Shown here: piece by piece, positions 485-62,333 of the stretch
How positions within the stretch are numbered: position 1 is the first letter of the stretch
How the letters are laid out: each line of letters begins with the position of its first letter
Origin: Lantana camara
Taxonomy: Eukaryota > Streptophyta > Magnoliopsida > Lamiales > Verbenaceae
NCBI GenBank assembly: GCA_037501455.1
Contig: CM074858.1
Location: 80,140,501-80,204,500 of the forward strand
Reading direction: 5' to 3'
Length of the DNA: 64,000 bases
The notes under the pieces: generated by a model
What the model saw: only the letters and a program-made list of their open reading frames with translations
The model's database searches: none
Told to the model about the DNA's origin: nothing
Program-made: the position numbers and the translations under genes

Positions 485-609
485 GGACACGGCGGTGTCA
501 CCCTCCTTAGCTAAACTGAGTCATGACCGTGGCTCAGTACAGACCTGCCCAGAAGGTGTGACACGCCTGTGTCTCACACTTATGTGTAAATGAGACACGG
601 GGGTCTCAC
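485..609 (-). repeat. Palindrome cluster in LTR M (GACAC-type, four copies)
   Basis: Four imperfect inverted repeats with arms such as GTGTGACAC / GTGTCTCAC and TGAGAC / GTCTCA around a short GC-rich centre. They lie about 1.8-1.9 kb from the LTR start. They occupy the place where other LTR families in the window carry differently sequenced palindromes. Confidence 0.65.
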
Positions 610-4343: not shown

Positions 4344-4579
4344 GGTCGCGGCCGCGACCTCGATTAGTGGAAAATCGGTAGCGGACGCGACATGTGAGTG
4401 TGCTTATCACTTTGCTCTCACAGGTTACGCCTTCGACCTGAATTAGTTCACTTTTTGTCGCGCGCACTACCCCATTTTGGCCAAGTTTTGAGTTGTTGAA
4501 AAATTGGAGGAAAAATTCGAATTTTTTTAGGTAGCGGCCGCTACCATTTCATGAAGATAATGGGTCGCGGCCACGACCC
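4344..4579 (+). repeat. Palindrome cluster in LTR F (GCGGCCGC-type, four copies)
   Basis: Copies at 4344-4359 (GGTCGCGGCCGCGACC, perfect), 4377-4391 (degenerate), 4530-4545 (GGTAGCGGCCGCTACC, perfect) and 4562-4579 (one mismatch). The second arm type exchanges TCGC for TAGC with the matching change in the other arm, so symmetry is kept while sequence changes. Confidence 0.8.
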
Positions 4580-6281
4580 CTTCTTTTGCTGCATGAAATT
4601 TCGATTTTCAAACGTTAAATGCATGGCTTCCTTGGCTCGTTTTTGGTTCATACACTTAATTAACATGTCATATAATGTGTTATCTTGTGTGTTATGAAAA
4701 TTTATGATTTTTCATGGAATATTTGACGAGTTATGCTTCAACGTGTCTTCATTGCTCCAATATGTGCATGCATGGACTTTAACTCTCAACTTGAACCCTA
4801 ATTGTTTATATATTCCTTATCTTGTGACTAATATGATATTTATACATGTTATTTTACGTGTTATGATCATTATTTGAATATCTTGGATTAAATTGATATA
4901 CTATATTGAAGTTATGAACTTGATTGAATTCAAACGTTTCTTGAAATGAATGAAATGATCGTTCACATGTCTTTAAGATATTAATTGTGCATAAGAACAT
5001 TTCCATGACATGATATCATCTCTTATGCATTTATATCATATTCATGACTTAGTTGTGCGTCTTATATGGTCATTTAAGTCTCACTTCACCTTGTTTGCAC
5101 AGATACGGGTCCAGTTGGAGGCGAGGACGAGCAGTGAAGCTCTTGCCTTTTCGTTTTATCTTCGATGGTGGATGTTCTCTACTATTTAGTTAAACAACCC
5201 TATATAGTCCCAATGTGTAAAGATTTCGGCCAAAATTATATTATGTATATAGAGTTGTTTTCAAGAGTCAAAGATTTCAACGTAAAACCTATCTTTTATG
5301 AACCCTACCGAATGTTTTGGAAAGAATGAATGATTGATCGCACGAATAGGGGCCCTGAGACTTAGTACACGTGGCTAACCGGGGAAGTAAGGGCTGACAG
5401 GGATCCCGTATACTAGTTCCACCAAACTACGGCGATACCGGCCCTCGCTAGGAGGTTAGTGGGGAATGGGAACCGGGCTTTTATGGATTCATGTACCCCA
5501 CTAGCCACAATGATTGAGGTGACCGGGCTTTGCAAACGCGTCCACCGCCCAGAGGGAAAAGGTGTAAATGATCATGAATGTGCACAAAGAATTGTTATGC
5601 ATGAAAAGATTGAATGAATGAATGTCTAATGAAATACACAAGGTGTTGGTTGGAGATAATGCATGCCCACTCGCCGGGCTACGAAAGACCTAATTGAAAA
5701 TTGATTGTTATAATCCCCTTTGATGATTTATTTATCTCACCCACTTGGGAAAATGCTTTGAAAACCTCATTTGGGATTATAACTTGCATGTGAATGTTTA
5801 AATACCGTCTTATATTATACTTATGACCTGTTTTTATAGCCACTAGTCCCTTTTGGACTGAACCTGGATTGTTTTCAGTTGTTTTGTGCAGGTGTAAGTG
5901 AGCTAGGCGGGAATTCGAGTCGGTGTGTCTCGCATTTGTCTCTAGCTCTTAGATTTTGGGTCTTACACTTGCATCCGCATACTTTTGATTATTTTATATG
6001 ACTTATGACTTGGAGCATATCTATTTTGGGCCGTGATGGCATGTGAATATTGTTTATGATCTATTTTGGAGCTTGATGCTCGTTGTAAATGTTATATAAC
6101 AATCATGTTTCCGCTTTATTGTTTTACTCGGATTTTATGGTTTAAGGGTTAGTCCTTCCTAGCATAGAGTGTGTGTTTGGTCCCCGTTCGCCGTGATTTA
6201 GCTCGAGTATGGATCGTCCATTTCATATTCGGGCCGGGTCTCAGTGCGGGGGGATGTGGTACCTCGCGCTCGGGTGCTACA

Positions 6282-8085
6282 CGTACTGTGAATTCGGTCC
6301 ACATATGAAATGGGCTAATCCATACATAAACCAAACTCAAAGCGAGCGGAAGACAATGAAAATAACAGTCCTGACTAGGCGGAATCTAACCCTAGAGTAA
6401 ATCAACAATACCAAAGATGCGGAAGCAAGGCAATTGTTCATTCAATATCCAAGAAATAAACACAACACCATTAGGAAAGTAGATACGGGTTCTACTAAGC
6501 AAGGCACCTATCCTAACCTTTCTCGAGTCCATACAATTCAATAAATGGCACACCGGTCCAATGAATTAATCAGTATGATACAATAAACAGTATAAGATGT
6601 AATGAGTGTACAAGTGTAGGACTCGAACAAAGACCGACAATGCAATTCCGCCTAGCAACCAACTGTAGAGAACCTGGAGAAAAAAGTCTCTAGAAGACTG
6701 ACTGAGCAGGAGGTATACATAAATATAGAAACATGCACATGCAAGCTGTAAATCCCGAGAAAAGTTTTAGTTAAAGTAGTTCCCGTAGAGGGCCAGAACT
6801 CAGTTACTCTATGCTCGGACTTTACAACTATCAACTTATACCATTAGTTACAATTACATGCTATCAGTGGCTCGGTGAGTAAGCGTGCACAATCTCCAAC
6901 CAAACTCCGACAGTGTATAATAATTAACTTCTCGTTCAAGGCGATCATGCAATTAATAGGTTTCAATCATTTCAATACAGCCAATTCAGTAACAGTGCAC
7001 AATCCGTTCCATTTCATCCTTCTTCCTCTGAGTGATGGTTCGGGGTAGCTAGCCCTTGCCATCCAATCAATATGGTCAATGGGTGCATGAATCCCCAAGG
7101 ACCGAGACTCCATCCTCCACTAACATCCTAGCGGATTTCGGGTTTATCTCAGCAATGTAGGGAGTACAAGAGATCACCGTCAGCCCGATACCTCCCCGAA
7201 TTACTCAATACGCTCAACCCTGGGCCTCGATCAATGTGCAGTACAATATCTCGCCAAAACAAAAAGGGTCAAAAATAACAATAACAGTAGGTTCAATTGC
7301 AACAAACATTTACTCGATTATAGCCTTTGAAACAATATAAATATAAGTATGGTTTTTGGGGCAAAACTCATTCATGTAGGTTTTAGGGTTTAGGTATGTA
7401 ACTAGAACGAAAACACCCTCACCTGCTAAGTGAAGGGACAAGATAAGTGTGCAAGATAGTGCCTATTCGATCGATGATCTCCGCCCTGGAGAAGAACTTA
7501 AATGAAAAAGAGAAGAAAAGAGATGAAGTTATGTGGTTGATTGGAGCTTCAAGGTTCGTTGATTGCCCGAATTAAAGCTTGAAAATGAAAATCGTACTTC
7601 CTCTTCTTCCTTGAGTTCAACCGAGAGAGAGAGAGAGAGAGACAGAGATCAAAAGAGCAAGTGTATGTATGTTGTGTATGAGGTGAATTACGTGATTTAT
7701 CTCTTATAAGAGATGATATGCCATAAATTGCAACTAGGTCCCCCAAGTTGATGAGTGATGCAATTAGCTTCTAAACTCATGAAATGTTATCAATTAAATC
7801 CTATTCAATTTCATGCAATTAGGTCCTCAATTTGTGGAAATGATCACTTAAGGCCATGCAAACAAATAAGACATGTTCCGCAATTTAATTCACGTATCAA
7901 TTAAATACGAATCATACAATAATTACCGAATTGGTAATAATTTCACTTAAACATTTAGTAATATAATTCACATAATATCATGAAGTGTGTAGAATAATAA
8001 ATGAAAGAATTAAATAAATCCTAACTCTCGAAAACTTACACGCGTGGCGCGCGTACCTGAACGGCTGAAAAACTGAGGCGTTACA
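6282..8085 (-). mobile_element. LTR G (part), interrupted by F
   Basis: Minus-strand LTR starting at 8085 (TGTAACGCCTCAGTTTTTCAG). Element F is inserted near its far end at 6282. It holds the AGTCT CTAGA AGACT hairpin (6685-6699) and a (GA)n run near 7623. TGTCC (8086-8090) should be its target duplication, with the partner off-window. No palindrome cluster was seen. Whether G is solo or complete cannot be told. Confidence 0.75.
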
Positions 8086-11313: not shown

Positions 11314-11438
11314 GTCCCCGCCCGGGGAAAGAAATGAAAGCAAAAGTCCCCGGTCGGGCAACGGGAAGGTAGTAGCTACTGCTAGAAGTGTCCCCGCCCG
11401 GGGACACAACCAACGCAAGATCTCCCCGCCCGGGGAGA
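11314..11438 (-). repeat. Palindrome cluster in LTR H (CCCCGCCCGGGG-type, four copies)
   Basis: Copies near 11314-11328, 11347-11360, 11391-11404 and 11421-11438; the last (TCTCCCCGCCCGGGGAGA) is the longest. It sits about 1.4-1.5 kb into the LTR. LTR B has the same type with a GGGC centre. Confidence 0.8.
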
Positions 11439-21519: not shown

Positions 21520-21566
21520 CTCCCCGGGCGGGTAATTTTGTGAACAAAATCTCCCCGGGCGGGGAG
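21520..21566 (+). repeat. Palindrome pair in 5' LTR of B (CCCCGGGCGGGG-type)
   Basis: CTCCCCGGGCGGGT (21520-21533, right arm eroded) and CTCCCCGGGCGGGGAG (21551-21566, near perfect). 3' LTR copies are at 38566-38578 and 38597-38612. Confidence 0.75.
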
Positions 21567-22495: not shown

Positions 22496-25169
22496 TGTAA
22501 CGCCCCGGTTCCGGATGAACAGGTAAGCACGCCACGTGTGAGATTTTTGAGCGCAGGTTTTATTTTAATTCTTTAAATCTTTATTTTTCTTACGTGGCAT
22601 CTCATATTTTTATAAAATTCATGAAATATCATTTATATGAATTATGTGAATTCATATCATTGAAAATATTATTTCATGACACGGGAAAATATTTATGGCG
22701 TAAAACCGTTACCGAGAGTGCTTCAAATTACGAAATTATCCCTAGTTGAACATTTCTTTAAATTTTAGGGACTTAACTGCATAGGTTTCAAGGATCTAAT
22801 TGGTAATCTTTTAAAATCACATACACTTGTATGCATAACTTGAATTCTTGGAGGATCAAATTGCAAAATTGGACATTCCACACTTTTCAAAAATGGGATG
22901 TATCGGTATAAGGCTTCCTTAAGCTTCTTTGATCAAATTTCATCTCAAAATCACCTAACACATTCGCTCCTCACTCTTGGTTCATACAAGAAAGAGAAGG
23001 GAAGAGAATTTCATCATTTACCTCAAGAATTTCCAAGAAAGATTTGAAGAAATTAAGTTTGATCATCATTTTCATCCATCTTCTTCATTTCTTGAACTTC
23101 AAAGGTGATAGTTGCATGATTTCATGATTCTTGAGCATATTTGATGGAGCTAGGGTTTGAGAATTATGTGTTAGATGAATTAATTGGAGTTGGAGGCATG
23201 ATTATGGGATCATATCATGAATTATGGCATGATTTATTCATGAAATTTTTGAATATTTGAGCTTGAATGATCAAAAGGAGCATGAGCATGAAACCTTGAA
23301 TTCTTGATGATATTTCATGTTTTAAGTGTTTAAGTGTTATGTTATCACTTCTTTTTAATATATATGCATCATATTTCCAGAAACTTTGGCTTTGTTGATC
23401 AAAAATTGGGTTTTGTTGTTGTTGTTGTTATGCATTCCCGTAGCCATGCTCTGTTTTTTCCTCTGTTCTTTCCAGTTGCAGAACTGGGAACGACCGTTCC
23501 TAGCCTCAAGCCCTTGAGGGAACGGGCGTTCCCACCTTTTCAAATAAAATAGGCGGCCGAGACTAGGAACGGGCGTTCCCATTGTGGCCTGCGTGCCGGA
23601 AGGGCCGTTCCCAGCTTCAGCGCATTTTAAAATTGGAAATCGTTGGCGCGTTTTTGGGGTTTATGGGAACGGCCCTTCCCATTTACAAAGGGAACCCGGA
23701 ACGGCTGTTCCCAGGGGTCTGACAGAACAAAATTCTCTGCATAAAATTACGATTTTAGCCCCTCGATCCAACGACTTCTTTAACCCCGAATTGTTTTTAT
23801 ATGATCCAATATGTACTGAAACAAGATGTTATCATGCCACATTCCATTTTCCTCGTCATCTCCTTGCATTTCTGTCGTTCGTCATATTTGGTTCATTTTA
23901 GGTCATGTCTCACGTATACACGTCGTGTTTGCACAGTTCACGAGGGCGTGGACGAGGAGCAGGCTCCGTAGAGCATATCTTTGTTGTATTTTGTAAGAAA
24001 AGGTGTGGTTTTATTCTAGGTATATAGAACCCTATAACCGTTATGTGATATTTTCGGCCAAAACGTATTATAAATATAAACGTTTTCCAAAATATAAACC
24101 TTTCAAGCAAGCAAGCCATTATTGTCATGATTTCAAGCAAGTTTGGCGATTACATGATTGCACGTGGGCCCAAGGGTAATTCTTGAACCAACCGGGAAAG
24201 CAAGGGCTGACGGGTAACTCCTGAATTATCCTCACATTGTTGGGATCACCCCCGAAGCCACTAGGAGATTAGTGGTGGAAGGAGTTCCGTGTCTAGGGAG
24301 TCATGTTCCCTACACACACCATGTCGTGGATAGTTGGGCCTTGCAAACCCACTATCACCCGGAGGAAGAAGGAGACTGGGGATTAATCCGGCATGTCGGG
24401 TTATCCTCGTGTTATTGCCTGTTTTCAAGCATGAAATTTTCTAATTGAGCACTAATTGGAACTGCATGATCATGTATTGAATTAATATCGCAAGCACGTA
24501 TTGTTCACGATTGGTGTAAAGGTTGGAGAATCGCCCTTACTCGCCGGGGCCACATGTTCATGAAATGATCAAGTTAAATTGTTAAAATGATTAGCTGTAA
24601 TCTCGGGCAAAGGATAAATTCTCTCGAACTACATATCTATTTCATTTTCAAAGCCTTCACCCGAGGTTACAACTTGCATGTGACGTGTGATATATATATC
24701 TTATTGCCCCTCACTCAGTCTTCGGTAGACTGATACTTCACTTTTCAGGTACTTGAGAGCGTGGTCGTGCTAGGCCGGAGTCCGGTCAAGTCTTACACTT
24801 TCACGGGTCTAGTATTGCACCTCTCATGTATAGACTTTTGATAGGCATCATGTTATGATCATGATTGTTACATTTTGAATACTCTAGCATGTATATAGTA
24901 TATGGAGATGATAATGTATTGATTGTTAAATTTGGTATCTGTATGTATCTATATCGGTAAATATGGTACCTATATATATGTTCGTTTTATTGCTTCCGCT
25001 TTTATATTCTTGTTTTGGTTGAATTATGTTGGGAGTGTCCCGCCTAGCTCGTTTGTTTTAATTGTCACCCGTTCTCTATAGTTTTGGTTTATGTATGAAT
25101 TGTCCGTTTCATACGTGGATCGAGACTATAGTGCGGGGGGATGTAGTGCCTTGGGGTTAGGGTGCTACA
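22496..25169 (+). repeat. 5' LTR of A
   Basis: TGTAACGCCCCGGTTCCGG...GGGTGCTACA. CAGGTAAG lies at 22520-22527 near the start. The palindrome cluster is at 23486-23712 and the CAGTCT/AGACTG hairpin at 24716-24732. It differs from the 3' copy by scattered substitutions and small indels, for example about 11 bp near 24402. Confidence 0.95.
23486..23712 (+). repeat. Palindrome cluster in 5' LTR of A (GGGAACGGCCGTTCCC-type, six copies)
   Basis: Copies at 23486-23500, 23518-23533, 23566-23580, 23598-23612, 23665-23680 and 23698-23712, each GGGAACGGNCGTTCCC with zero to two mismatches. 3' LTR copies are at 30953-31179. LTR D has the same type. Confidence 0.85.
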
Positions 25170-25423: not shown

Positions 25424-26671
25424 ATGGATCGTGATAGACATCACCGTGACCAATCTCCGAGACACAGGCATCATCATCATCGCCGTCACCACCATCATCG
25501 TGAGAGATCACCTCCTCCTCCACCTGCTCAGGTACAGCCTTAGGATTTTATGAACGCGGTAGTGGGGCTAATTGATCAGAGACTACAGGACAGGGTTCCT
25601 CCACCACCACCAGCACCCGTGGCACCCCAGGAGAACCCCATTTCTACCATTTTCCGAGAGTTCCAGAATCAGCATCCCCCGAAGTTCTATAAGGGCGACG
25701 ATATACAGGCAGAGATGTGGTTGAAGGAGATCGAGAGAATTTGGCAGCTTATCCCTTGTGATACCCAGGAGAAGGCTCGCTGTACACTTACTTTGATTCA
25801 GGACGAGGCCTATTCCTGGTGGGAAAGCACACAGATCGTCTTGGAGGCAGCCGGGACAGAGATTTCTTGGGAGGTCTTCGTACGGGAGTTTGGAAACAAA
25901 TTTATTCCTCCAGCTTCCCGTACCCGCAGGTTGAGGGAGTTTACCGAGCTGAAACAAGGAGGAAGGTCCGTGGGGCAGTATATCGCCGAGTTCGAGAGAC
26001 TTTCTCGCTATGCACCCAACATAGCGAATGATGACTTTCATAAGGCAATGCTGTTCGTCGAGGGACTCAGGCCAGACATCCAGGATGCACTGAAAGCGGC
26101 TAACACTAGCACCTGGGCCAAAGCTACCGCTAAAGCTTTGAAAGTCGAGGATTCTGATATTGCCAGGAGGTCTATTCCTCGCACAGGACAGGCTTCAGGC
26201 TCGAGAGCGGGTCAGGGATCGAGTTCAGGGAAGAAACCGATGATCTATTCTGTACCTCCAGCCCCGAAGGACACCGGGAAGAAGTTTAAGGCTACAGGAC
26301 AGTTACAGAAGGGTCCAAGAGCTCCAGCACCACCACAGCCACCTTAGAAACCGGGCTGCAGATTCTGTGGACTTACTACTCACACCTATGATAACTGCAG
26401 ACGAAGGTTGGGCTTATGTTTGATCTGTGGGAGCGACGAGCATTTGGTTGATGGTTGTCCGGATCGTCGGGATCCGCCACCTGCAGGTCCGAGGCCACTT
26501 GTTAGAGCTCGGGCTTACGCACTCACTGGAGAGGAGCAGGATGCAGAGATCAACCCCGCAGCGGTAGTTGAAGGTACTGTTTGCATCTATGGCACGAACA
26601 TCCATACGTTATTTGATCCAGGAGTTACACACTCCTTTCTTGTGCACTCTATTGCTATTACATTACCTTAG
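25424..26671 (+). pseudogene. gag and protease start of element A (interrupted)
   Basis: The start at 25424 (MDRDRHHRDQ) is chosen because it opens the frame that continues through the capsid domain. A His/Arg- and Pro-rich leader is followed by TAG at 25541. The capsid core includes WLKEIERIWQL, SWWES, FIPPASR and VGQYIAEFERLSRYAP. After TAG at 26345 two CCHC zinc knuckles follow in frame: CRFCGLTTHTYDNC (26357-26398) and CLICGSDEHLVDGC (26417-26458). The protease site reads LFDPGVTHSF (Asp codon 26615-26617), with Pro where Ser or Thr is normal, so the protease would be inactive. TAG follows at 26669. Gag binds and packages element RNA. Confidence 0.9.
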
Positions 26672-27870
26672 CCTGCTATGTGCTCTTCTGTGCGCTATCT
26701 AGTTAGTACTCCTTTTGGTAGTAGGCGAGAGACGGATCAGGTTTACAGGGATGTTCCAGTGGTGATTGAAGGCAGGGAATTCTTAACAGATTTTATTGTT
26801 ATGCCGATGGAGAGGTACGGGTCTATACTGGGGATGGATTAGTTATACCGGCACTGTGCTACCGTGGATTGCCGAGCAAAGAAAGTGCAGTTAGGTTCAG
26901 GGGTTATCACGGGTTGTACTTCGAAGACAGTACCCCTATTTCATTCTCAGAGGCTCAGAAATTGGTCACTGACGGGGCTACAGGGTTCGTTGCTTATATT
27001 CTGAACAAGCCAAAGGATCAGGTGAAATTAGAAGACACCGAAGTGGTAAAAGAATTTCCCGAAGTTTTCCCAGAGAAGTTAGATTCTTTGCCTCCTGAAC
27101 GAGAAATAGAGTTTTTGATTGATCTTTATCCGAATGCCGAGCCGTATTCAAAGACTCCGTACCGGATGGCTCCAGCCGAATTGAAAGAATTAACAGTTCA
27201 GCTTGAGGCACTATTGGAAGTTGGGTACATCCGGCCGAGTTCTTCACCTTTTGGAGCACCGGTGTTATTTGTAAAGAAAAAGGACGGAACTTTAAGAATG
27301 TGCATCGACTACCGGGAGTTGAACCGGATGACTATTAAGAACAAGTATCCCCTTCCACATATCGAGGAGTTATTCGATATACTTCAGGGTTCCAAGGTTT
27401 ATTCAAAGTTGGATTTAAGATAGGGATACTATCAGTTGCGGATCCAAGCAGAGGATATTCCTAAGACGGGATTCAATACTCGGTACGGGCACTACGAGTT
27501 CGTGGTTATGCCGTTCGGGTTAACTAATGCCCCTGCAGCTTTCATGGATATGATGCACCGGATTTTCAGGCCTTTTCTCGACAAGTTTGTGGTGATTTTC
27601 ATCGATGATATTCTGGTGTTCTCAAAATCAGCCGAGGAACACGCGAGACATCTTAAGCTCATTCTACAGACATTGAAAGAGCATCAGTTGTTTGCCAAAT
27701 TCAGCAAGTGTGAATTTTGGATCGATCGGGTTTCCTTCTTGGGATATTTAATTTCGGGAAAAGGGTTGGAAGTCGATCCCTCGAAAATCGAGGCAGTGCT
27801 GAAATGGGAGAAACCAAAGAATGCCTCGGAAGTCAGAAGCTTTTTGGGATTGGCCGGTTATTACAGAAGG
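26672..27870 (+). pseudogene. Protease end and reverse transcriptase of element A (interrupted)
   Basis: Protease-linker sequence runs to TAG at 26840. A one-base loss near 26890 moves the reading to the frame of 26869-27423. RT motifs follow: [45 protein letters not shown] and [16 protein letters not shown] at 27421 sits inside the LDLRxGYYQL motif. The catalytic FIDD box is intact at 27601-27609 (Asp codons 27604 and 27607), then LGYLIS. A deletion near 27870 in the GYYRRF motif shifts frame again. RT would copy element RNA into DNA in the cytoplasmic particle. Confidence 0.95.
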
Positions 27871-28400
27871 TTCGGGACTTTTCTAAGATTGCTGCACGGT
27901 TAACCCGATTGACGAAGAAAGATGTTAAATTTGTCTGGGACGAGAAGTGTGATCAAAGCTTTAACTTTTTGAAAGAAAAGTTGGTCTCAGCTCCGGTGCT
28001 AGCACTTCCCGAGGGTTCAGAGGAATATGCAGTGTACACAAATGCTTCTAAAGAGGGCTTAGGTTGTGTTCTGACTCAGAAAGGAAAAGTGATCGGTTAT
28101 GCTTCTCGAAAGCTAAAGGAATATGAAAGGAATTATCCTACACACGACCAGGAGCTTGCACCAGTGATTTTTGCTCTCAGGAAATGGAGACATTATTTAT
28201 ACGGGACTTCCTTTGAGATTTTCACTGACCACAAAAGCCTCCAGTATTTATTCACGCAGAAGGACTTGAATATGAGGCAACGGCGTTGGATGGAAAAGTT
28301 AGAAGATTATGATTGTACAATCAAATATCATCCAGGGAAAGCCAACGTGGTCGCCGATGCACTTAGCAGGAAGGCTAGTGTGTCAAGTTTGGAAATAAAG
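27871..28400 (+). pseudogene. RNase H of element A (catalytic Asp lost)
   Basis: The connection to RT reads [15 protein letters not shown]. The RNase H start reads [13 protein letters not shown] where the first catalytic Asp is normally in YTDAS; here the codon is AAT, a G-to-A change. Later residues remain: THDQELA, FTDHKSL, and VVADALSRK after YHPGKAN. Even without the stops this enzyme would probably be inactive. Confidence 0.9.
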
Positions 28401-29929
28401 GAAAGTGAGGAAGTTGCTCCGATTGTTTTAAAGGCTCGGGTTTCGAATATCACCATTCAGCCAAAATTGAAGTATCAGTTATTTGAGGCTCAGAATAATG
28501 ATCCGGAAGTTCAGAAGCTTGTAAGCAAGGCTAGAGCTGACTCGGAGAGTCCTTTCGGGTTTGATGAGACCGGTTTGCTTAGATTTAAAAACAGAGTAGT
28601 AGTACCCGAAGAATTGAAACGGGTTCTACTCGAAAAAGCTCACAAGTCAGCCTATTCGATCCACCCGGGAGGAAACAAAATGTATAAGGATTTGAAACAA
28701 TACTATTAGTGGAACGGGATGAAAAGAGACATGGCCGAGTATGTGAAACATTGTCTAACTTGTCAGAAACTGAAAGCTGAACACCAAAAGCCCGCGGGCC
28801 TTCTACAACCGTTACCTATTCCCGAATGGAAGTGGGAACAAGTAACGATGGACTTTGTTTCCGGATTACCAAAGGTTAAAGGCGGGTTTGATGGAATTTG
28901 GGTAATCGTGGATAGATTTACGAAATCTGCTCACTTTCTACCAGTCCGGATGTCTTATAAGATTCCAAAGTTAGCCGAGATCTATAATAGAGAGATTATC
29001 CGACTTCATGGTGTTCCGGTGAGCATAGTTTCAGACCGAGACCCGAGGTTCACATCTAAGTTGTGGCAGGAGTTGCACGCCATTTTGGGGACGAGACTCA
29101 AATTCAGTACAACATTTCACCTGCAAACAGACGGTCAAACAGAAAGGTTAATCAGATATTTGGAAGATATTCTTCAGGCTTACGCGATGGATTTTCAGAA
29201 TTCATGGGCAGAACAGCTTCCTTTGATCGAATTTGCATATAATAACAGCTTTCAGGCTTCGATCGGGATGGCTCCTTATGAACTTCTTTACGGAAGAAAT
29301 TGCCGATCTCCGTTATTCTTCGACTTGGAAGAATGGAAATGGTCGAAACAAGAAGGGGTAAAGAAAGGTGAAAGATTTGAGAAACCTTCCAAGGTCGTTT
29401 AGGATATGATTGAGAAAGTTCAGATGATTCAACAACGGATGAAAGCCGAGCAAGATAGTCAAAAGAGCTATGCCGATACGTGCCGAAGAGATCTAGAATT
29501 TGAAGTTGGTGACCGGGTATTCTTGAAGGTGTCACCAAGGAAAGGTTTCATCCGGATCGGGAAAGGAGGGAAACTTAACCCTCGCGACTTAGGGCCTTTC
29601 GAGATTCTTGAAAGAATAGGCGAGGTAACCTATCGGTTGGACCTACCACCGAGTCTTACGGGGATTCACAACGTGTTTCATGTTTCACAACTCAGGAAAT
29701 ATTACCCCGATGAGACTACGATTCTCCCCGTGGAAGAAGTTGAGTTGGAACCGAATTTGACATTTGTTTAGAGACCGGTTAAAATCTTGGATCGAAAATT
29801 TCAAGAGTTGAGAATTGGAGGATTCCCATGGTTAAAGTTTTATGGAGAAGTGACAAGACTGAGGATGCTACGTGGGAAACTGAAGATAAAATGAAACGGT
29901 TCCACCCGGAGTTGTTCACGCAAGACTAG
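28401..29929 (+). pseudogene. Integrase and chromodomain of element A (interrupted)
   Basis: N-terminal HHCC zinc domain: His residues in [12 protein letters not shown], cysteines in CLTC. TAG at 28707 falls between them. The catalytic core has Asp in TMDFVSGLP (codon 28851), Asp in VSDRDPRF and Glu in RYLEDIL. The GAPYELLYGR-like region reads GMAPYELLYGR, then SPLFFDLEEW. TAG at 29400 and 29769. The C-terminal GDRVFLKVSP and GIHNVFHVSQLRKYYPD are intact. A shift after 29771 leads to the chromodomain end WRSDKTEDATWE and MKRFHPELF, stop at 29927-29929. Integrase joins element DNA to chromosomes; the chromodomain is thought to direct site choice. Confidence 0.92.
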
Positions 29930-29967: not shown

Positions 29968-32624
29968 TGTAACGCCCCGGTTCCGGATGAACAGGTAAGC
30001 ACGCCACGTGTGAGATTTTTGAGCGCAGGTTTTATTTTAATTCTTTAAATCTTTATTGTTCTTACATGGCATCTCATATTTTTATAAAATTCATGAAATA
30101 TCATTTATATGAATTACGTGAATTCATATCATTGAAAATATTATTTCATGACACGGGAAAATATTTATGGCGTAAAACCGTTGCCGAGAGTGCTTCAAAT
30201 TACGGAATTGTCCCTAGTTGAACATTTCTTTAAATTTTAGGGACTTAACTGCATAGGTTTCAAGGAACTAATTGGTAATCTTTTAAAATCACATACACTT
30301 GAATGCATAACTTGAATTCTTGGAGGATCAAATTGCAAAATTGGACATTCCACACTTTTCAAAAATGGGATGTATCGGTATAAGGCTTCCTTAAGCTTCT
30401 TTGACCAAATTTCATCTCAAAATCACCAAACACATTTGCTCCTCACTCTCGGTTCATATAAGAAAGAGAAGGGAAGAGAATTTCATCATTTACCTCAAGA
30501 ATTTCCAAGAAAGATTTCAAGAAATTAAGTTTGATCATCATTTTCATCCATCTTCTTCATTTCTTGAACTTCAAAGGTGATACTTGCATGATTTCATGAT
30601 TCTTGAGCATATTTGATGGAGCTAGGGTTTGAGAATTATGTGCTATATGAATTAATTGGAGTTGGAAGCATGATTATGTGATCATATCATGAATTATGGC
30701 ATGATTTATTCATGAAATTATTGAATATTTGAACTTGAATATTAAAAGGAGCATGAGCATGAAACCTTGAACTCTTGATGATATTTCATGTTTTAAGTGT
30801 TTAAGTGTTATGTTATCACTTTTTTTGAATATATATGCATCATATTTCCAGAAACTTTGGCTTTGTTGATCAAAAATTGGGTTTTGTTGTTGTTGTTATG
30901 CATTCCCATAGCCATGCTCTGTTTTTCCTCTGTTCTTTCCAGTTGCAGAACTGGGAACAACCGTTCCCAGCCTCAAGGCCTTGAGGGAACGGGCGTTCCC
31001 ACCTTTTCAAATAAAATAGGCGGCCGAGACTGGGAACGGCCGTTCCCATTTTGGCCTGCGTGTCGGAAGGGCCGTTTCCAGCTTCAGCGCATTTTAAAAT
31101 TGGAAATCGTTGGCACGTTTTTGGGGTTTATGCGAACGGCCCTTCCCATTTACAAAGGGAACTCGGAACGGTCGTTCCCAGGGGTCTGACAAAACAAAAT
31201 TCTCTGCATAAAATTACGATTTTAGCCCCTCGATCCAACGACTTCTTTGACCCCAAATTGCTTTTATATGATCCAATATATACTGAAACAAGATGTTATC
31301 ATGCCACATTGCATTTTCCTCGTCATCTTGTTGCATTTCCGTCGTTCGTCATATTTGGTCCATTTTAGGTCATGTCTCACGTATACACGTCGTGTTTGCA
31401 CAGGTCACGAGGGCGTGGACGAGGAGCAGGCTCCGTAGAGCATATCCTTGTTATATTTTGCAAGAAAAGGTGAGGTTTTGTTCTAGGTATATAGAACCCT
31501 ATAACCGTTATGTGATATTTTCGGCCAAAACGTATTATAAATATAAACGTTTTCCAAAATATAAAAATTTCAAGCAAGCAAGCCATTATTGTCATGATTT
31601 CAAGCAAGTTTGGCGAGTACATGATTGCACGTGGGCCCGAGGGTAATTCTTGAGCCAATCGGGAAAGCAAGGGCTGACGAGTAACTCCTGAATTATCCTC
31701 ACATTGTTGGGATCACCCCCGAAGCCACTAGGAGATTAGTGGTGGAAGGAGTTCCGTGTCTAGGGATTCATGTTCCCTACACACACCATGTCGTGGATAG
31801 TTGGGCCTTGCACCCCCACTATCACCCGGAGGAAGAAGGAGACTGGGGATTAATCCGGCATGTCGGGTTATTGCATGTTTTCAAGCATGAAATTGTCTAA
31901 TTGAGCACTAATTGGAACTGCATGATCATGTATTGAATTAATATCGCAAGCACGTACTGTTCACGATTGGTGTAAAGGTTGGAGAATCGCCCTTACTCGT
32001 CGGGGCTACATGTTCATGAAATGATCAAGTTAAATTGTTAAAATGATTAGCGGTAATCTCTGGCAAAGGATAAATTCTCTCGAACTACATATCTATTTCA
32101 TTTTCAAAGCCTTCACCCGAGGTTACAACTTGCATGTGACGTGTGATATATATATCTTATTACCCCTCACTCAGTCTTCGGTAGACTGATACTTCACTTT
32201 TCAGGTACTTGAGAGCGTGGTCGTGCTAGGCGGGAGTCCGGTCAAGTCTTACACTTTCACGGGTCTAGTATTGCACCTCTCATGTATAGACTTTTGATAG
32301 GTATCATGTTATGATCATGATTGTTACATTTTGAATACTCTAGCATGTATATAGTATATGGAGATGATAATGTATTGATAGTTAAGTTTGGTATCTGTAT
32401 GTATCTATATCGGTAACTATGGTACCTATATGTATGTTCGTTTTATTGCTTCCGCTTTTATATTCATGTTTTGGTTGAATTATGTTGGGAGTGTCCCGCC
32501 TAGCTCGTTTGTTTTAATTGTCTCCCGTTCTCTATAGTTTTGGTTTATGTATGAATTGTCCGTTTCATACGTGGATCGAGACTATAGTGCGGGGGATGTA
32601 TTGCCTTGGGGTTAGGGTGCTACA
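29968..32624 (+). repeat. 3' LTR of A
   Basis: Same start and end as the 5' copy, 2657 bp. Palindromes at 30953-31179, hairpin CAGTCT TCGGT AGACTG at 32172-32188. Confidence 0.95.
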
Positions 32625-36970: not shown

Positions 36971-39900
36971 TGTGACGCCCCGATATTTCGGCCGTACAAG
37001 TATGACGTATATGTTTACCAAATTGCGCTAATAAATTGTTTATAAGTGATTTATATATTTAATTTTATATATTAAATGTTAATTATTATATATATTAAGT
37101 TAATTAATATTATATATGTATATATGAATTAGTTGATATATAATTTAAATGTTATTAATGCAATATATATATGTATATATTTAATCGTTAAATTAAATAA
37201 AATTGTACATTTTATATTCTAATTTTGTTTTTTTAAATTAAAGTATACATTAATTGTGCACTCTAGTTTAATTTAATGATGTATTTAATTTTTCAATTTA
37301 TTTGAATTGTTATGGATTTTCAAATGCATCACTTATGAGTGATATAAACGTGCTTCGTTTTTATATGATTTGATACCGAAATTTCGTGTAAATTTAATAT
37401 GTCGGAGATATACGTGTCTTGAATATGAATATATGTTCGTTTCATATTTTCGGGTTCATTTGCATGAGTTTCGAATTTATTTCGATTTTTGGAATCCAAG
37501 TCGGGGGCTAACGAGTAATTAGCGCACCCTTGGTTCCGTATGTGATATCTTGAGCTCGGGAACTTGGAATCGAGTTCCGTCAACTTCGCTGAACTCGCAA
37601 CGAAAATTTGAGTTTAGTGAACCTAGCCTTATATTTTTTCAAAGTTATTTGAACCTCCGAAATTTAACCGAAAAACGAAACCGCGACAAAACTACATGTT
37701 TTACTAAAATGACCATAACTCAAACAATTCTTAACCAAATTAACCATGGTTTGATGCTATGAAACCCTAACTCAACCACCTAACCTGTTATACCATCCCT
37801 TAACCAAACCAACCCTCCCACAAACAAGAAATCTCAGCCAAAGCCACTGACTTCCAGTCATTCCCGTAACCTTGCCTTCCTTGGAGATTTTGGAGCTCAA
37901 ATCTCTTCCAACCTTCATCCAATCAACAAGGTAAGCCTAGGGTTGTAATATACATTTATTCCTGGTCATTTTGATCCTTTCATTCCCAAATTTGAGCATG
38001 TTTTCATGGATTTTCGGCTGCTTCTGTGAATAGTTAGGTTTTGAGCATTTTTGTTGATCTCCTTCGATTCTTGTTGGTTTTAGTTGATTCCAAGCTTAAA
38101 TATGATAGTTTTGACAACCTCTTCTCATTTCTGATCATTGATTACATGGTAGTTGAAGTATTCATGAGATTTCATTAATGACACTTTGAGGAAAAATTCA
38201 TGAAATAAACTCATATATCTTCATCTCACGTCTGAGCATTCTTGGGGCTGATTTGTATGCTAATTTGGAGTTGTTTTGCTGCATTTTTGATGCCCTAACT
38301 TACCTAAACATGTTGAGATAAAGGAGATCAGTTGTTGCCCTATTTTTTCATCGTTTTACCCTGTTTTGGGACTGGTTTTAGCTGTTGCTGTCTGCTGCGT
38401 TTCCTTGCCATGTTGCTGTCAATTTTAATCAGTTTTTTGGAGTTTCTTGGCCTGTTTTGCTACTGCTTTAATGGCTTTTAGTTGCTGCTTGTTGTTGTTG
38501 CATTTCCATGACCAAAAACAGGGGTAGGGCGTGCGTTTAAACTGCTGCATCATTTCTGGAATGAGCTCCCCGGGCGGGTAATTTTGTGAACAAAATCTCC
38601 CCGGGCTGGGAGATTGGATCTGTAAACTGCTGCTGCTGTTTGCTTTCCTTTTCTTCTTTGCTGCTTCGGTTTCCTTCTTCTTCCTTGTTTTGCTGCGTCT
38701 GTTCTTCCTTCATCTGTTGCAATGTGTGTGCGTGGATAGGTAATTTGTTGCTGCTGCTATCTTTATTCTTTCCTTCCTTCTTTAATCTAATTGCATGTGA
38801 TGTGTTTAATTGTTGTGTGTGCAGGTAATAGGGCTTTAAATGTTTGCATGCATGAAGTTTGTTTGTGCATGAATTGCATGCATTGTAATAAGTTAAATTG
38901 CATGAGAATTGTAATTGGTACATGTTAGTTTGCATGCATGGGGTTGTACGTGTGCATGTATGTTTTTGTATATATGTTTAGATAGTTATGCATGCATGTT
39001 TGTTTTCCTTTGAAGTGGTACGTATATATATGTATATTTATGTATATATATGTTTATATTATATTAAATATTATTTGATTTAATTGAACTATAGAATTTA
39101 ATTGTTACCTATTTCATGTTTTATTTAATTTCCGATTTTAAATTGAATGTATTTAGTTGTCTATTTTCTAATTGTAAATACGATTTAATACGTGCTATGA
39201 TCATATTTGAAATTCTTTGATTGAATTGATATGAAATGTGAATTTATGAATTCGAATGAAAGTGAACGAATGATTGAATGACTTGTTTATATGTCTTAAA
39301 TTCCTTAATAGTGCACATGAACATTTTCATGACATAATCTTATCTTTTAAACATTCATATCATGATCATTACATTGCGGAGCGTATTATATGGTCATATT
39401 GAGTCTCACTTCACATTTCTTGCACAGATTTTCATTCCGTTGGAGACGAGGCCGGTCAGTGAGGCTCGTGTGTTCTCCTTTTTGCCGTTTAAGGTGGGTT
39501 TCTCTTCTATTTAGATAAATGGCCATATATACTCCTAATGTGTAAAGATTTCAGCCAAAAGTATATATATATAGATAGAGACGTTTTCAAGGGTCAATGA
39601 TTTTAAAAAGTAAAGCCTTTCTTTTATGAACCTACCAAATGTTTTGGCGAGAAAAGAACGAATGTTATGCACAGAATGGGCCCAGGGACTTTGTGTGAGT
39701 GCTGACCCGAGGAGGCATGGGCTCACGGTGAACCCTCACACTAGTCCGACCAATGAATAGCGTAACCGGACCTTGTTAGGAGTTAGCGAGGAATGGACGC
39801 TGAGTGTCATCTGGGGAGTCATGTTCCCCTTTTGGTCAATGAATGGGTGGTCGGGCCTTGCAAACCCACCACCAACCCGGAGGAAGAAGGTGGAAATGTT

Positions 39901-41966: not shown

Positions 41967-42164
41967 CGGGAACAGCCCTTCCCGTTCCCTTTGTAATTGG
42001 GAACGGCCCTTCCCATAGTTTGAACAATGTGCATGGCGGCGAGGACGGGAACGACCGTTCCCACTTTGGTTTGCAAGCCGAAACGGCCGTTCCCATCTTC
42101 GGGGAGCCCGACAGGCGGGAACGGCCATTCCCACTTTGAACTAAAACCTGGAACGGCCGTTCCC
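41967..42164 (+). repeat. Palindrome cluster in LTR D (GGGAACGGCCGTTCCC-type, six copies)
   Basis: Copies at 41967-41984, 41999-42014, 42046-42062, 42079-42094, 42116-42132 and 42150-42164. Same palindrome type and copy number as in A, although the surrounding LTR backbone is strongly diverged. Confidence 0.85.
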
Positions 42165-44435: not shown

Positions 44436-46560
44436 AATCCCCCAAGGGCGCTCAGCTACCATTCCATGCTAATCTCCTAGCGAGGTCCGGTCTCTGTTAA
44501 ATGGTTGGGATTAGTACATGGGATCACCGTCGGCCCTTGCCTCCCCGCATAGCCACATGTACTAGATCCTAGGTCCGTGAAATCATTCATGTTCTCGCCA
44601 AAACATTCCAATTCATGAAAACATAACATATTCCATAATTCTTGAGAAAAGGTTTACTCGATATAAATTTACTCGATGACTCCACTTTGAAAATAACATA
44701 TATATATACATAAGGTTTTCGATAAAACTTGTCACATACGGGTTGTAGGGTTTGATACATAACTAGAAAGAAAACATCCTCACCTGCAAAACCACGAGAC
44801 AAAGAACAAGCATAATATGGTGCCTATTCGATCTGGAAGTCTCCGCCCTGGAGATGAACTGTACAAGCAAGAGAATAATGTGTACTCGTGAGAAATGACT
44901 CAATATGAAACCAATTAGGATGCACGACATTGACATGAGATGTTCATGAAGTGATATGGAAAGATTCAATATGCAATCGATCATAAAATGTCATGAATTG
45001 ATGTGATCGTGCTCATGTACATAATTAATTCCATTAAGGCACATAAATGATTAAATCATTCAATAGGCATGTATACAATGCATGTAAGTCACACAAGAGG
45101 TTGAGGAGGTGAAAGGAAAGTCATATAACGGTTTTTGGCAAAGTTTAGCAAAAGTTAGGAAAAGTTGACAATTTTCGAAAATGAACAAGCTGAAGGAAAA
45201 TGGGAATATCTTGAGTTCTAGAAATTAGAGTTAAGTTTTCTTGTTGGGTAAGAAACTAGACACATATAGATTTCCAAGGATATATGGCACGAATCATGGT
45301 TCAAAACGAGGTGAAAATGGAATAGACCCGAAGTTGAATGAATGCAGATTTCCGAGGAAGTGGTGATACCAAAAAGGATTTATTATAACTCACAATAGAG
45401 AATGGATAAAGAGGTGATTCCAATTGGATAATATTCTAGACTTCACGAGGTTTCCATAGGTTTAAAAATCAGGTCAATCGGAGTTCGTATGAGGGAGAAC
45501 GAAGTAAAAAAAAAACTCGGATCCACGGCCGTGGGTCAAAAATCCACGCCCGTGGGAAGACTTCCGAGTCTCTGGACACAAATCCACGGCCGTTGGAGAA
45601 AATCCACGCCCGTGGATACCTTCTCCAGCAGCAAACCGAATTAAAAATAGGGCAAGGCACTCGTGGCTTCCTCCCAAAGTTCAAACACAACCAAAACTCA
45701 ATCCAAATCGCTTAAAACATGCAATATATCATGTAGGAGCATTAAATACAAGTTTAGAACAACTTAAAACACATTAATTCACAAACCCACATCAAAATTC
45801 ACATATATACATACATATATACATACACAATTACATACACATATTCTTGCTCTAAGAATTCCAACAAGTAAGCATAGAATTCATAGATTATCATGTATTC
45901 ATGCATATTTACACAAGAATTCAAGTTATAAGGCAAAGATCACCAAACCCTATCTTATTTAACATATATACAAAATCCACATAATACCTTGGAAGAAAGG
46001 AGGAGGAGAAGAAGATGGTGAAAGCTTGAGTTCTTATCTTGAATGGAGAAGAATGAAGCTTGAATCCCTTGCCTTTCTTGGTTGATGATGGATCGTTGAT
46101 GGGGGAGAGAGATTGGAGGGTTTGGAAGCTTTGTGTGTTGAGAGAAGAAATGAAGAAGAAGAATGAGAAGAAAGGGGGGTTGGATCGTGTATTTAGGGAG
46201 AAGAAAGGAGGGAATTTGTACTTTGGTCCTTTGAGAGTTTAAGTGATTCGATTAGGCCCCAAGGTTTGGTAGGTGATCAATTGGGGTCCAAATTAAAGTT
46301 CGATTGAGTCCAAGGATTTCATATCAGATCAAATAGGTGCATAATCAAAACAAAAAACATTAATTACCAAGGATACATATTAAAACAAGTTTAAGTAACA
46401 AACTCAATTAAATCACATAAATCACATAGTAGTAATTAATTCACGAAATTATTTAATTAACAGTCACTTAACAATTAAAACATAAATAAAATCATATAAC
46501 ACTCGGTCTAATCCCACTCGTGAGGTCATACCTGACTTGTCAAGAAATCGGGGCGTTACA
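44436..46560 (-). repeat. Left LTR of C, inner segment
   Basis: Runs to the LTR start at 46560 (minus strand TGTAACGCCCCGATTTCTTG). Palindrome cluster 45523-45615. The AT-rich, A-biased second half has no gene. Confidence 0.9.
45523..45615 (-). repeat. Palindrome cluster in left LTR of C (CCACGGCCGTGG-type, four copies)
   Basis: Copies at 45523-45534, 45544-45555, 45584-45596 (one extra base) and 45604-45615, alternating GGCC and GCCC centres. Right LTR copies lie within 55677-55769. Confidence 0.85.
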
Positions 46561-51285: not shown

Positions 51286-51447
51286 GTCGCGCGGGTCACG
51301 CCCGCGACCTTGATTGCCTGTAATTTGGGTCACGCCCGCGACTGTACAGTACGCTGCCCTCGTATTCTGTAAATTGGAGAAAATGCTGGAAATTAAGGGT
51401 AGCGGCCGCTACCATTTCATGAAGAAAATGGGTCGCGGCCGCGACCC
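51286..51447 (+). repeat. Palindrome cluster in LTR E (GCGGCCGC-type, four copies)
   Basis: Copies at 51286-51308, 51327-51342, 51398-51413 (GGTAGCGGCCGCTACC) and 51430-51447 (GGGTCGCGGCCGCGACCC). Same type as F and J. Confidence 0.85.
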
Positions 51448-52374
51448 CTGTTTTCTGAAAAAATTCCAGTTCGAGTTGTTGTGTGTGTGTAGGCTGTAAT
51501 TCTTTTCCTTTCCTTAATTGCATGCATGGAGTGGGACGTGTATATATATATGTATAGATATAACATTTCATGCATGAAATATGATTTAAGTGCTAGAGTG
51601 CATGCATGAATTAATTGTAAAGTTTCATTTTTATATTGCATGCATACGTGTATATATATATGTATATATAAATATATCTATATAAATATTGGTATTAAGT
51701 TAAATAATGATATATATATATATTAATTATGGTTTAATTTGTTTAAATTTTAGAATTTAATTGTTATTTATTTCATGTTTTATTTAATTTCCTAAATTTA
51801 ATTGAATGTATTTACTTGTTTATTTTCTAATTGTAAATGTGATTGAATGTATTTAATTATCGAATTCTTAATTTTATATGTGATTTACTTTGTGCTAAGA
51901 TTTAATTGAAATTCTTGAATTGAATTGATTGAAATGTGAAATTATGATTCGGATGAAAGTGAATGAAAGATTGAACGACTTGATTATATAATTTAAATTC
52001 CCTTTGACGTGAAATGTGAAGGATATGAACTCGTTTGAATTCGAATGCTTCATTAAATGAATGAATTTAATGTTTATGTGTCTTTAAGACTTTAATAGTG
52101 CACATGAACGTGTTTATTACATTATAGCATCTCTTGTACATTCATATCATAATCATTTCATAGCCGAGCGTCTATGTGGTTTCATATTGAGTAATTCTCA
52201 CAAGTACACATTGTTCCTTCTCTTGTATAGTTTGTTTCCAGGGCGGAGACTTCCCAATTGAATAGGCACCCGTATTGCTCTTGTTTCTTGTCTCGTGGTA
52301 TTCCAGGTGAGGGTGTTTTCGTTCTAGTTACATATCAATCCCTACAACCCGTGTGTGATAAGTTTTGGACCAAA

Positions 52375-59462: not shown

Positions 59463-62333
59463 TGTAAAGCCCCACTTCTTCGATATTCAAGGTATGACGT
59501 CACGAGAGAGTTTAATTCAGTAATTTCGTGATTTATGTGAATTCGCATACTTTAAGTGTCAACGTGGAATTTATTTAAGTTATATGAGCTTTAGATTTAA
59601 TTAAATTTGTTTGGCCTCGAATGCCCAATATTTGAAAGTTTAGGGACCTAATTCTAATTAGTGTATTTTCGGCCTTCGTGACTATCTTGAGCTCGGGAAT
59701 TCAGATTCGAATTCCAACCTTGCTATTGAGTTCGTTTCGATGATTCGGATTCGATGAAATTAACTTTGTATTTTTTTCTAAAGCCATTTGATAACCCTAT
59801 CGTTTTAAAATCCGATCTAAATGGACCAAATATCGTTTGACCCTACCCATTTTGCCTGACCCGTTTCTTGGCCTAGAAAAGGGCCGAACCCCCCTTTTGC
59901 CTCCCCATTTGGATCGGTCAACCAAGGAGAAGAGGGAGAAGAAGAAAAGAAAGAGAAAAAAGCCAACCCCAAGCCTTCGAGCTCAAGAACCTCATCCCCA
60001 TCCGCCTGATCAACGATCCAAGGTAAGAATTGTATTCTTCTCGCTACATGTTTCTTTTCTACGTGCTTTTCGTGGCATGGTTTCATGTTTATGTGACTAT
60101 TTGGGGAAGGTAGTGAATAGTGTGGGTTTCAAGTTTTGAGGTGTTCAGGCTCGTTTCGGAGCCTGATTTGTGTTCTATTGTGATCTACGAAAGTATTTGA
60201 TGTTATATGTTGGTTTTGCTTCGTTTTGTGGGGTTTTGGGGAGATTGGAAATTAGTTCATTTCGCGTCGCGAGCGCTACGCCTTGTGTTTTTGGGCGTCT
60301 GGATGTGTGTCGCGGGTACGACCAAATTGTGTACATTTTGGGTCGTGGCCACAACTCAAGGTCAGTGGAGGTTCTGGACGTGCGTCGCGGGCGCGACCAA
60401 AATTCATACAATTTTGGTCGCGGCCGCGACACCCTTCCAGTTTGGGTGTCTATTGTTACGGCGCGGTCGTGACGCTTTTGGGCTCGGCCGCTACGCCTTG
60501 CTGTGTTCGTTTTCATACTTTTCTTTCGTTTCTTTCGGCTTTGTTCGTTCTTTCCCGCCCCGAGCATGCTCCCAACATTATTTATGATTGTTTTATGTTA
60601 TGCATCTCCTTGATTGTTATGCTATGCATATGTATGCTTCGATTACGTGTAACTTGTATAATTTGGAACCATACATCTACGAGTAATGACTTATGAACGT
60701 TCATGCATTTGTCGTGCGTCCATGTGGTTCTTTGTGAGCCTAAGTCTTGTCTTTTGCCTTCAGCTTGTTCAGGTACACCCAGGGTGAATCAAGCGTTTTG
60801 TCTTCATCTCCATTTGGTACAAGGTGAGGTTAGGATATAGTTAAACCCTAATGCAACTTGCTCGTTTTGAATGCATGCGACTTATAAGCCCTGTGTATAT
60901 GTAAATATGTGCGAAATAAGTATCTTGATGAATGTATGAAAGCTATGTAGGAGCCTATGTATGCTTGTTTTTGGATTTGATACATATGTATGTGGTAAAC
61001 ACGTATGTGTATATGTATAGTATGTACGCATGTGATAAGTATGTAAGAGTGTATGTTTGGTACGTATGCATGTGGTATGTACGTATATGTGTGTGTGTAT
61101 ATGATAAGTATGCTTGTGACACGCACGATATGTCTTGGTATGGACGTTTGTAGGGGGCTTAGGACTTGACTTGACTTGACTTGTACATGACTTGCTTGAT
61201 GAGGCCCTAGAGACTGTGGGTAAGGACACATGGGGCGACCAAGGGGTCACCGGGCACGGCTCCTGTGCATAGTCTCCACTTATTAGGTGATAAGGATGTA
61301 CCAGAACCCACCAGGAGGTTTGGTTGGGGGATGGAGCCCTGAGGGTTGAGAAGCATTGAGCACTCCCCTTGGTTATGGTCGCACAACCCTTCCATCACCC
61401 AGAGAAGAGGTTTGATACATCTTAACTTGCTTGGTATGTCTTTTTTTGTTTATTTGGTTGTTTTAGCACGCTATTTCTCGAGGAGCTTGGGTGGTTTGAA
61501 CTCGTGCCCGCTGAGTCTTGTTACGTTTGTCTTGAGTTCGTGAAATAAGGGTAGATTCCTAAATTAAGATAAAATTTGGAATATTAATAATCTAATAAAA
61601 TGTTCTTGAAATGCATGATAAGTTTGATTTGTCTTGAACGTAAACCTTTTTTTGTATTGCTAGCCTTGTTTTGCTTTATCTTGTCAAATTACCCTATATA
61701 TATATTATCACAGGTAAATGTTTTGGATTGCAAAAACTAATCCCGGATTCACGAACAATTACTTTTGACGTGCTTTGCTCTGTATATATGTATAGTGTGC
61801 GTGTGTTAACCCCTCACTCAGTCATTGTGACTGACCCCTCCCTCTTTACATTTTTAGTTTGCAGGTTTGCTTTGGAGGTTCGAGTTAGGTGGAGTCACTC
61901 AGTCTGTGAAGTCCGTTTTGAGTCGGGTATTTTGTTAAGTCTGCTTTTCGCATTTCTTATTTTGTATTCGATTACGTTTGTTTTCTTTGATCGCACGCCA
62001 GTATAAGTATGATTTGTTTAACTATGTTATACATTTCGGGACAGGCTTGCATGTATGATTTATGTTATGAATTGACTTTCGGGATTAGGAATCTATGCTA
62101 GTTGAACCTGTCATCTGCTTTTATCTTTTAAATTTTTGTATGGAATGTTCACGCTTCCGCATATATGTTGTTTGTACAGTGATGTTCAGGGTCTATGTTC
62201 CACCTAACTTAAGTTTGGTTTTTGTTCGTCTCCCTTTCACTGTGGCTTGGCGCATATACGGAGTCTTTGTTTCGTTACACCTGTCGAGTTATGGTGGGAG
62301 GGGGATGTGACACCCACAGCTTGGGGAGCAATA
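59463..62333 (+). repeat. Right (3') LTR of J
   Basis: Starts TGTAAAGCCCCACTTCTTCG, about 2.87 kb. It contains GGAATTCA GATT CGAATTCC (59692-59716 area), a palindrome cluster, a TACGTATG alternating tract (about 60900-61150) and hairpin CAGTCA TTG TGACTG (61819-61833). The final bases are mutated. Confidence 0.85.
60265..60497 (+). repeat. Palindrome cluster in right LTR of J (about seven copies)
   Basis: Imperfect GGTCGCGGCCGCGACC-type copies near 60265, 60308, 60340, 60383, 60416 (perfect core), 60460 and 60481. The left LTR has lost the whole block. Confidence 0.75.

Follow-up and report, generated by a model that had tools for sequence, protein, structure and literature searches.

The LTRs of nested Ty3/gypsy elements examined here carry clusters of GC-rich, 16-bp palindromic units that often stand in pairs 31-34 bp apart (21 bp in family C). 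The clusters themselves had been seen in a first-pass annotation, which missed the pairing, and it is the pairing that is new. With a probability of roughly 55%, the clusters are putative cis-regulatory arrays, made of paired operator sites for a two-fold-symmetric DNA-binding protein. Among the roles proposed in the first-pass annotation, a site for a dimeric protein is the best reading, as a prediction from sequence. The units, the pair spacing, the conservation of the arms and the place relative to a TATA-like block in four families are observed directly.

Palindromic units and the elements that carry them

The window, meaning the whole 64,000-nucleotide stretch of DNA that was analysed (contig C4, bases 80140501-80204500; the genome is of plant type and measures 1.27 Gb), is built of nested LTR elements and sits within nested Ty3/gypsy elements (table 1). 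The presence of GC-rich palindrome clusters in these LTRs is confirmed: counting GC-rich 16-mers in which at least 7 of 8 positions pair gives 24 for the window, whereas 15 first-order Markov shuffles gave 0-5 (mean 1.8). The 24 are not independent, as both LTRs per element and multiple units per cluster are included. In twenty 10-kb windows taken at even steps from contigs C1 and C4 and not selected for the motif, 40 palindromes have 7 perfect arm pairs irrespective of the centre bases, where three shuffles averaged 2.7. By our count, the CG-NN-CG kind makes up 28 of the 40 and other palindromes the remaining 12. These windows add the arm types CTACCCG, AGCCACG, TGACACG and GGTTGCG. Genome-wide, GGGAACGGCCGTTCCC occurs 15,128 times, GGTNGCGNNCGCNACC 11,252 times and GGTAGCGNNCGCTACC 1,238 times, the same patterns read backwards giving 0, 22 and 0, and the repeat counts may be lower bounds. 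Among the first 50 A-type places (GGGAACGGCCGTTCCC) listed, 27 have another at 4-9 kb (mean 4.8, maximum 15 in 2000 random placements), an excess as expected of LTR pairs.

Each 16-bp unit has two loosely constrained bases at its centre, flanked by 7-bp arms that end in CG. The claim that arms are family-specific and surround a common centre, given here as CG-NN-CG, holds in the typed units, and the arm types named for families A, B, C, D, E, F, H and J are found in the window. For M the cluster is present, and its arms are better given as the GACAC..GTGTC units at 485-607. None of the six units of Cluster A in the 5' LTR matches the perfect GGGAACGGCCGTTCCC, which is found at 31032 in the 3' LTR of element A, and one additional, different palindrome, CCTCAAGCCCTTGAGG, lies in Cluster A at 23504.

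Table 1. Coordinates in the window of the palindrome clusters and of the parts of element A
Feature	Position	Strand	Details
Cluster M	485..607		GACAC..GTGTC and GTCATG/GTGGC units; 485/519 34 bp apart; unit order same in L015
Cluster E	4344..4578	+	GGTCGCG and GGTAGCG units, pairs at 33 bp
Cluster H	11314..11437	-	GTCCCCG and CTCCCCG units, pair at 32 bp
Cluster B	21520..21566	+	CTCCCCG units, pair at 31 bp; second LTR copy 38566-38612
5' LTR of element A	22496..25169	+	96.3% match to 29968-32624; TG..CA ends and downstream sequence read directly
Cluster A	23486..23712	+	three pairs of 16-bp units: 23486/23518, 23565/23597, 23665/23697; each 32 bp start to start
TATA-like block TATATAGAACCCT	24021..24033	+	309 bp after Cluster A; same in L018, with changes in L008
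gag, RT, RNase H and integrase pieces of element A	25544..29402	+	Ty3/gypsy order
3' LTR of element A	29968..32624	+	units at 30953, 30985, 31032, 31132, 31164
Cluster D	41968..42164		six A-type units, pairs at 31, 32 and 32 bp
Cluster C	45521..45617	-	ATCCACG units, 21 bp apart; second LTR copy 55675-55771
Cluster F	51294..51446	+	GGTCACG, GGTAGCG and GGTCGCG units, pairs at 34 and 33 bp
Cluster J	60265..60431	+	GTCGCG-type units, one pair at 33 bp

Profile matches place the coding pieces of element A in the Tekay/Del order of gag, RT, RNase H and integrase, the rve match of the integrase (27.8 bits) being under the Pfam cut-off of 32.6. The relatives of one RT piece, among the matches listed, are largely plant proteins, many of them from Asteraceae. 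Locus L008 holds a near relative of element A (90-95% identity over the longer matches to A pieces), with a Tf2-1-like SH3 domain well over the Pfam cut-off and a Chromo match (E 4.2e-4, 20.6 bits) under the cut-off of 25.1. The cluster-bearing elements are likely to be chromoviruses of the Tekay/Del kind; the lineage name Tekay is our assumption, made from the look of the sequence and the LTR length. The gag-pol of element A and its relatives is of Ty3/gypsy type and not of the Ty1/copia type of Sireviruses. A search of LTR A against Rfam gave no match. The two LTRs of the element at L018:3081-9741 are 99.5% identical, and its inner part of 1.4 kb matches gag alone; the element is thus recent and apparently non-autonomous, although an E-type cluster lies in each of its LTRs.

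In LTR A the cluster occupies bases 991-1217 of 2674 and the TATA-like block is at 1526. This block is probably the core promoter, as judged from its sequence. It follows the cluster at 309 bp in A and in L008, at 505 bp in L018 and at about 780 bp in C; because it lies downstream, the clusters of these four families are likely to be in U3. A search for TATATAGAACCCT-like blocks with at most 2 mismatches gave 17 hits in all sequence searched. Seven are in cluster-bearing LTRs (both LTRs each of A, L018 and L008, and one LTR of C), three belong to a wider block common to L013 and L024, where the LTR stretch covered has no cluster, and the remaining seven resemble chance. The block of C is weaker and lies at 54885, on the minus strand, in the second LTR copy. 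At the same threshold no such block was found in the cluster-bearing LTRs of B, D, E, F, H, J, L005, L012, L020 and L022, which counts against the operator reading.

Palindromes of other kinds were also encountered. In L006 (1119-1165 and 7423), the palindrome TGGGGTTCGAACCCCA, which we take to resemble a tRNA T-arm, is present twice, at a distance of 31 bp, close to where a 373-bp repeat (1140-1512 and 7413-7785) begins. The palindromes TGTGACACGTGTCACA and CGTGTGA..TCACACG occur at L007:7159-7266, L009:3168-3228 and L021:2319-2363; those of L009 lie inside 1.1-kb inverted arms and are therefore perhaps in a DNA transposon and not in an LTR. One 10-kb sample window (L010:1-10000) consists wholly of tandem repeats with a period near 457 bp.

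Pair spacing and cassette-like differences on LTR backbones

Measured from start to start, the distance within pairs is 32 bp in A (three times), 31-32 bp in B, D and H, 33-34 bp in E, F and J, 34 bp in M, L015 and L022, and 21 bp in C, and the families so paired have unrelated arms and mostly unrelated spacers. The same spacing emerges when arm types are disregarded: with masking of L002, L004, the satellite L010 and, for each LTR pair, the second copy, 21 of 50 de novo neighbour distances of up to 60 bp fall at 31-34 bp, and two of the 21 (L006, L009) are other palindromes. Typed pairs at 31-34 bp are present in 9 of the 20 even-step windows (L005, L008, L012, L013, L014, L015, L018, L020 and L022). 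Seven of eight loci picked for a single GGTAGCG unit from the listing of GGTAGCGNNCGCTACC have a pair at 33-34 bp, the exception being L026, and so do all four loci picked from the listing of GGTNGCGNNCGCNACC, three of which had pairs already visible. Among the 50 E-type places listed for GGTNGCGNNCGCNACC, 10 of 11 neighbours within 60 bp are at 33-34 bp. At L003, a single array mixes ATCCAC-type and A-type units at distances of 33, 38, 31, 43, 32, 43 and 31 bp.

The recurrence of 31-34 bp across families with unrelated arms supports the operator reading. Against it, the distances between successive pairs vary (about 38-104 bp), and neighbour distances chosen by hand out of the de novo set showed no peak at 10.5 when tested for a helical period, though this test is uninformative.

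Ordinary tandem repetition, named in the first-pass annotation as an outcome that would overturn its view, is not supported. Over 16 clusters the units are 85% identical within a cluster and the 12-bp flanks 29% and 32% (the value for C is depressed by one unit, at 45581, that is out of register), the sequence between palindromes is not part of a repeated unit, and no array lies over the cluster. Tandem repeats near Cluster A are limited to a TTG run and a repeat of 12 bp, and neither lies within it.

The proposal that different palindromes sit on one LTR backbone, as if a cassette were exchanged, is borne out by flank alignments. The LTRs of E and B align at 75% and 78% on either side of a stretch that does not align, and on this common backbone E carries GGTCGCG units and B carries CTCCCCG units; the LTR of F, on the E backbone (E-F flanks 71-76%), has E-type units. 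A 52-bp module at 4530-4581 in E is 96% identical, spacer included, to the second module of F at 51398-51449. This may reflect strong constraint or exchange between families; here the module as a whole has been either retained or exchanged.

Conservation of the arms and the competing readings

In five A-type LTRs compared, the arms are 93% identical, the centres 74%, the spacers 59% and the flanks 65%; the 7-bp arms are thus conserved islands. Of the 40 A units, 39 or 40 retain each base of GGAA.G..C.TTCC; changes at position 6 (6 units) and position 11 (7 units) were, by eye, never seen together. When the units are oriented, the first base is C in 11 of 40, which is a one-sided and apparently inherited asymmetry. 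In the second unit of an A-type pair (e.g. 23597, 23697), the inner end is often C and not G.

Whether change in the arms keeps dyad symmetry, as had been suggested, depends on the type: in A-type units the changes affect one side, and in the other types they are in part paired. With second LTR copies left out and the orientation of L020 and D inferred, pairing of A-type arms with their own partners (6.18) does not exceed that of permuted arms (6.23), so the suggestion is not supported for the A type, to which the cluster at 23486-23712 belongs. In non-A types own-arm pairing is 5.96 of 7 against 5.67, a value reached by 2 of 5000 permutations, to be read with the caution that units were chosen for near-palindromy and that the M unit at 592, which is off register, inflates the result. 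All types together give 6.06 against 5.91 (reached by 74 of 5000). Among the 50 E-type places listed, the arm pair is C/G in 42, C/T in 5, A/T in 2 and C/C in 1; mixed arms thus exist and paired change is not strict, six of the 50 places being counted against it.

On the one hand, these features are consistent with operator sites. Besides the constant pair spacing, this reading is supported by the conservation of the arms over spacers and flanks, by the likeness of units within clusters whose flanks differ, by one-sided changes at fixed places of the A arm, as for independent half-sites, by the loosely constrained centre, by T-rich and A-rich linkers common to families (spacers tend to begin with ATTTT and end with AAAAT), and by the TATA-like block downstream in A, L018, L008 and C. 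The arrays would be placed in the probable U3 of Ty3/gypsy LTRs, upstream of the core promoter, and each 16-bp unit would offer a double half-site to a DNA-binding protein with two-fold symmetry. A module would consist of two such units at a distance of about 32 bp, near three helical turns, joined by a linker that is first T-rich and then A-rich, and it would carry a pair of dimers on the same face of the DNA, probably in a cooperative manner. The arm sequence may vary by family because families use, or evade, different factors. From the sequence we infer protein binding, cooperativity and a role at the promoter.

On the other hand, several of the observations are expected if units or modules fold in LTR transcripts and serve dimerisation, packaging or hairpins that give rise to silencing small RNAs, as proposed for maize Sireviruses. 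One long hairpin is the best fold in 13 of 15 modules, and such hairpins are the best folds in 6 of 7 stretches, with z-scores from -1.6 to -6.7. The paired changes in non-A types are predicted by structure too. Dyad symmetry in the spacers exceeds that of their letters when shuffled (2.83 against 2.39, reached by 0 of 500), symmetry extends a little past the 16-bp unit (2.45 against 1.77 for flanks), and an excess of small RNAs over Sirevirus palindromes is described in the parts of PMC10760457 compared. Good folding, paired change and symmetry of this kind count against the operator reading. However, spacer halves match no better within a module (2.10) than between modules (2.06, the former reached by 2134 of 5000), and the reading of the module as one long hairpin was not adopted; spacers beat their own shuffled letters at any centre, which we read as the common ATTTT...AAAAT composition. 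Arms pair with their own unit better than with the partner unit in 7 cases, equally in 33 and worse in 2 (n=42). Among mismatched arm pairs, G-T (22) shows no clear excess over A-C (14) beside 43 of other kinds, the split being 5 against 3 in known and 17 against 11 in inferred orientation and not decisive. The A type keeps one-sided, non-wobble changes, a fixed spacing of 31-34 bp is not predicted by folding, and the probable place in U3 would exclude the 5' copy, though not the 3' copy, from the genomic transcript. The RNA dimer of the first-pass annotation keeps the folding in its favour but is judged less likely than a protein site, given the spacer halves and the lack of a clear G-T excess, and an RNA role in general we consider unlikely.

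Less probable still is an epigenetic or anti-silencing island, in which dense CG and CCG sites would be read by the methylation machinery or by an element-specific, VANC-like protein. Each unit has CG on both sides of its centre, and the motif density and family-specific arms recall the VANC case, as far as PMC5735166 was compared. However, element A shows gag-pol pieces only, so that no element-coded binder is known, and CG density alone leaves the conserved outer arms (GGAA..TTCC) and the spacing unexplained. A purely mutational origin, where template switching or quasi-palindrome correction creates and repairs dyads without selection, would yield paired arm changes and spare the centre, but it predicts neither the constant CG-NN-CG centre nor the fixed pair spacing nor the one-sided changes in A, and the arms are conserved while the flanks diverge; we regard it as very improbable.

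Relation to known palindromic motifs

The statement in the first-pass annotation that no feature like this had been described was too strong, since the repeated motifs of Sirevirus (Ty1/copia) LTRs are very similar in the parts of PMC2829016 compared. These are palindromic, element-specific motifs with a CGG-CCG core, found upstream of the TATA box and called Sirevirus-specific, being absent from the classic elements compared there. Here, too, clusters of short dyad palindromes with a CG-rich core and arms that differ between elements are found in the LTR, and the predicted TATA-like block of A, L018, L008 and C lies downstream, so that the clusters of these families may correspond to the position in the upper LTR half described for Sireviruses. 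The differences concern the host, which is Ty3/gypsy, and the centre, which is CG-NN-CG and only partly CGG-CCG: among the 50 E-type places listed, the core is CGGCCG in 13, and in the rest the middle of CG..CG is CC/GG in 19, AC/GT in 17 and GA in 1. Our units are paired at 31-34 bp, and no spacing of box pairs is given in the parts of the Sirevirus paper compared. Sireviruses are credited there with at least 8 copies per element and the LTR of A, on which the comparison was made, has 6 typed units. The Ty3/gypsy host, the fixed pairing and the CG-NN-CG centre are new with respect to the Sirevirus motifs, and no report of similar palindromes in Ty3/gypsy elements was found by title or abstract opening among open-licence papers.

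In the parts of PMC10760457 compared, Sirevirus palindromes form a cluster in the regulatory LTR that changes fast on a conserved backbone, as here, and are linked to small RNAs; the present case differs in its superfamily and is known from sequence. The VANC motif arrays of VANDAL elements are likewise dense, family-differing short motifs in non-coding parts of the element. According to the parts of PMC5735166 compared, however, they belong to DNA transposons, have their motifs in one orientation within tandem repeats and are bound by an element-coded protein.

The palindromes of Sireviruses may act in regulation or may supply small-RNA silencing. The occurrence of such motifs in a second, unrelated superfamily, with a fixed spacing, offers a way to decide: altering the spacing or a single arm would tell binding to duplex DNA from RNA folding. 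Any binder of GGGAACGGCCGTTCCC would meet very many sites, since more than 15,000 exact copies are present in one genome. Tentatively, and with more doubt than attaches to the operator reading itself, the clusters may represent a modular paired operator of Ty3/gypsy elements in which the layout is kept, the half-site is exchanged by family and a group of dimeric plant regulators coevolves with the elements, the Sirevirus motifs then being of the same class in an unrelated superfamily.
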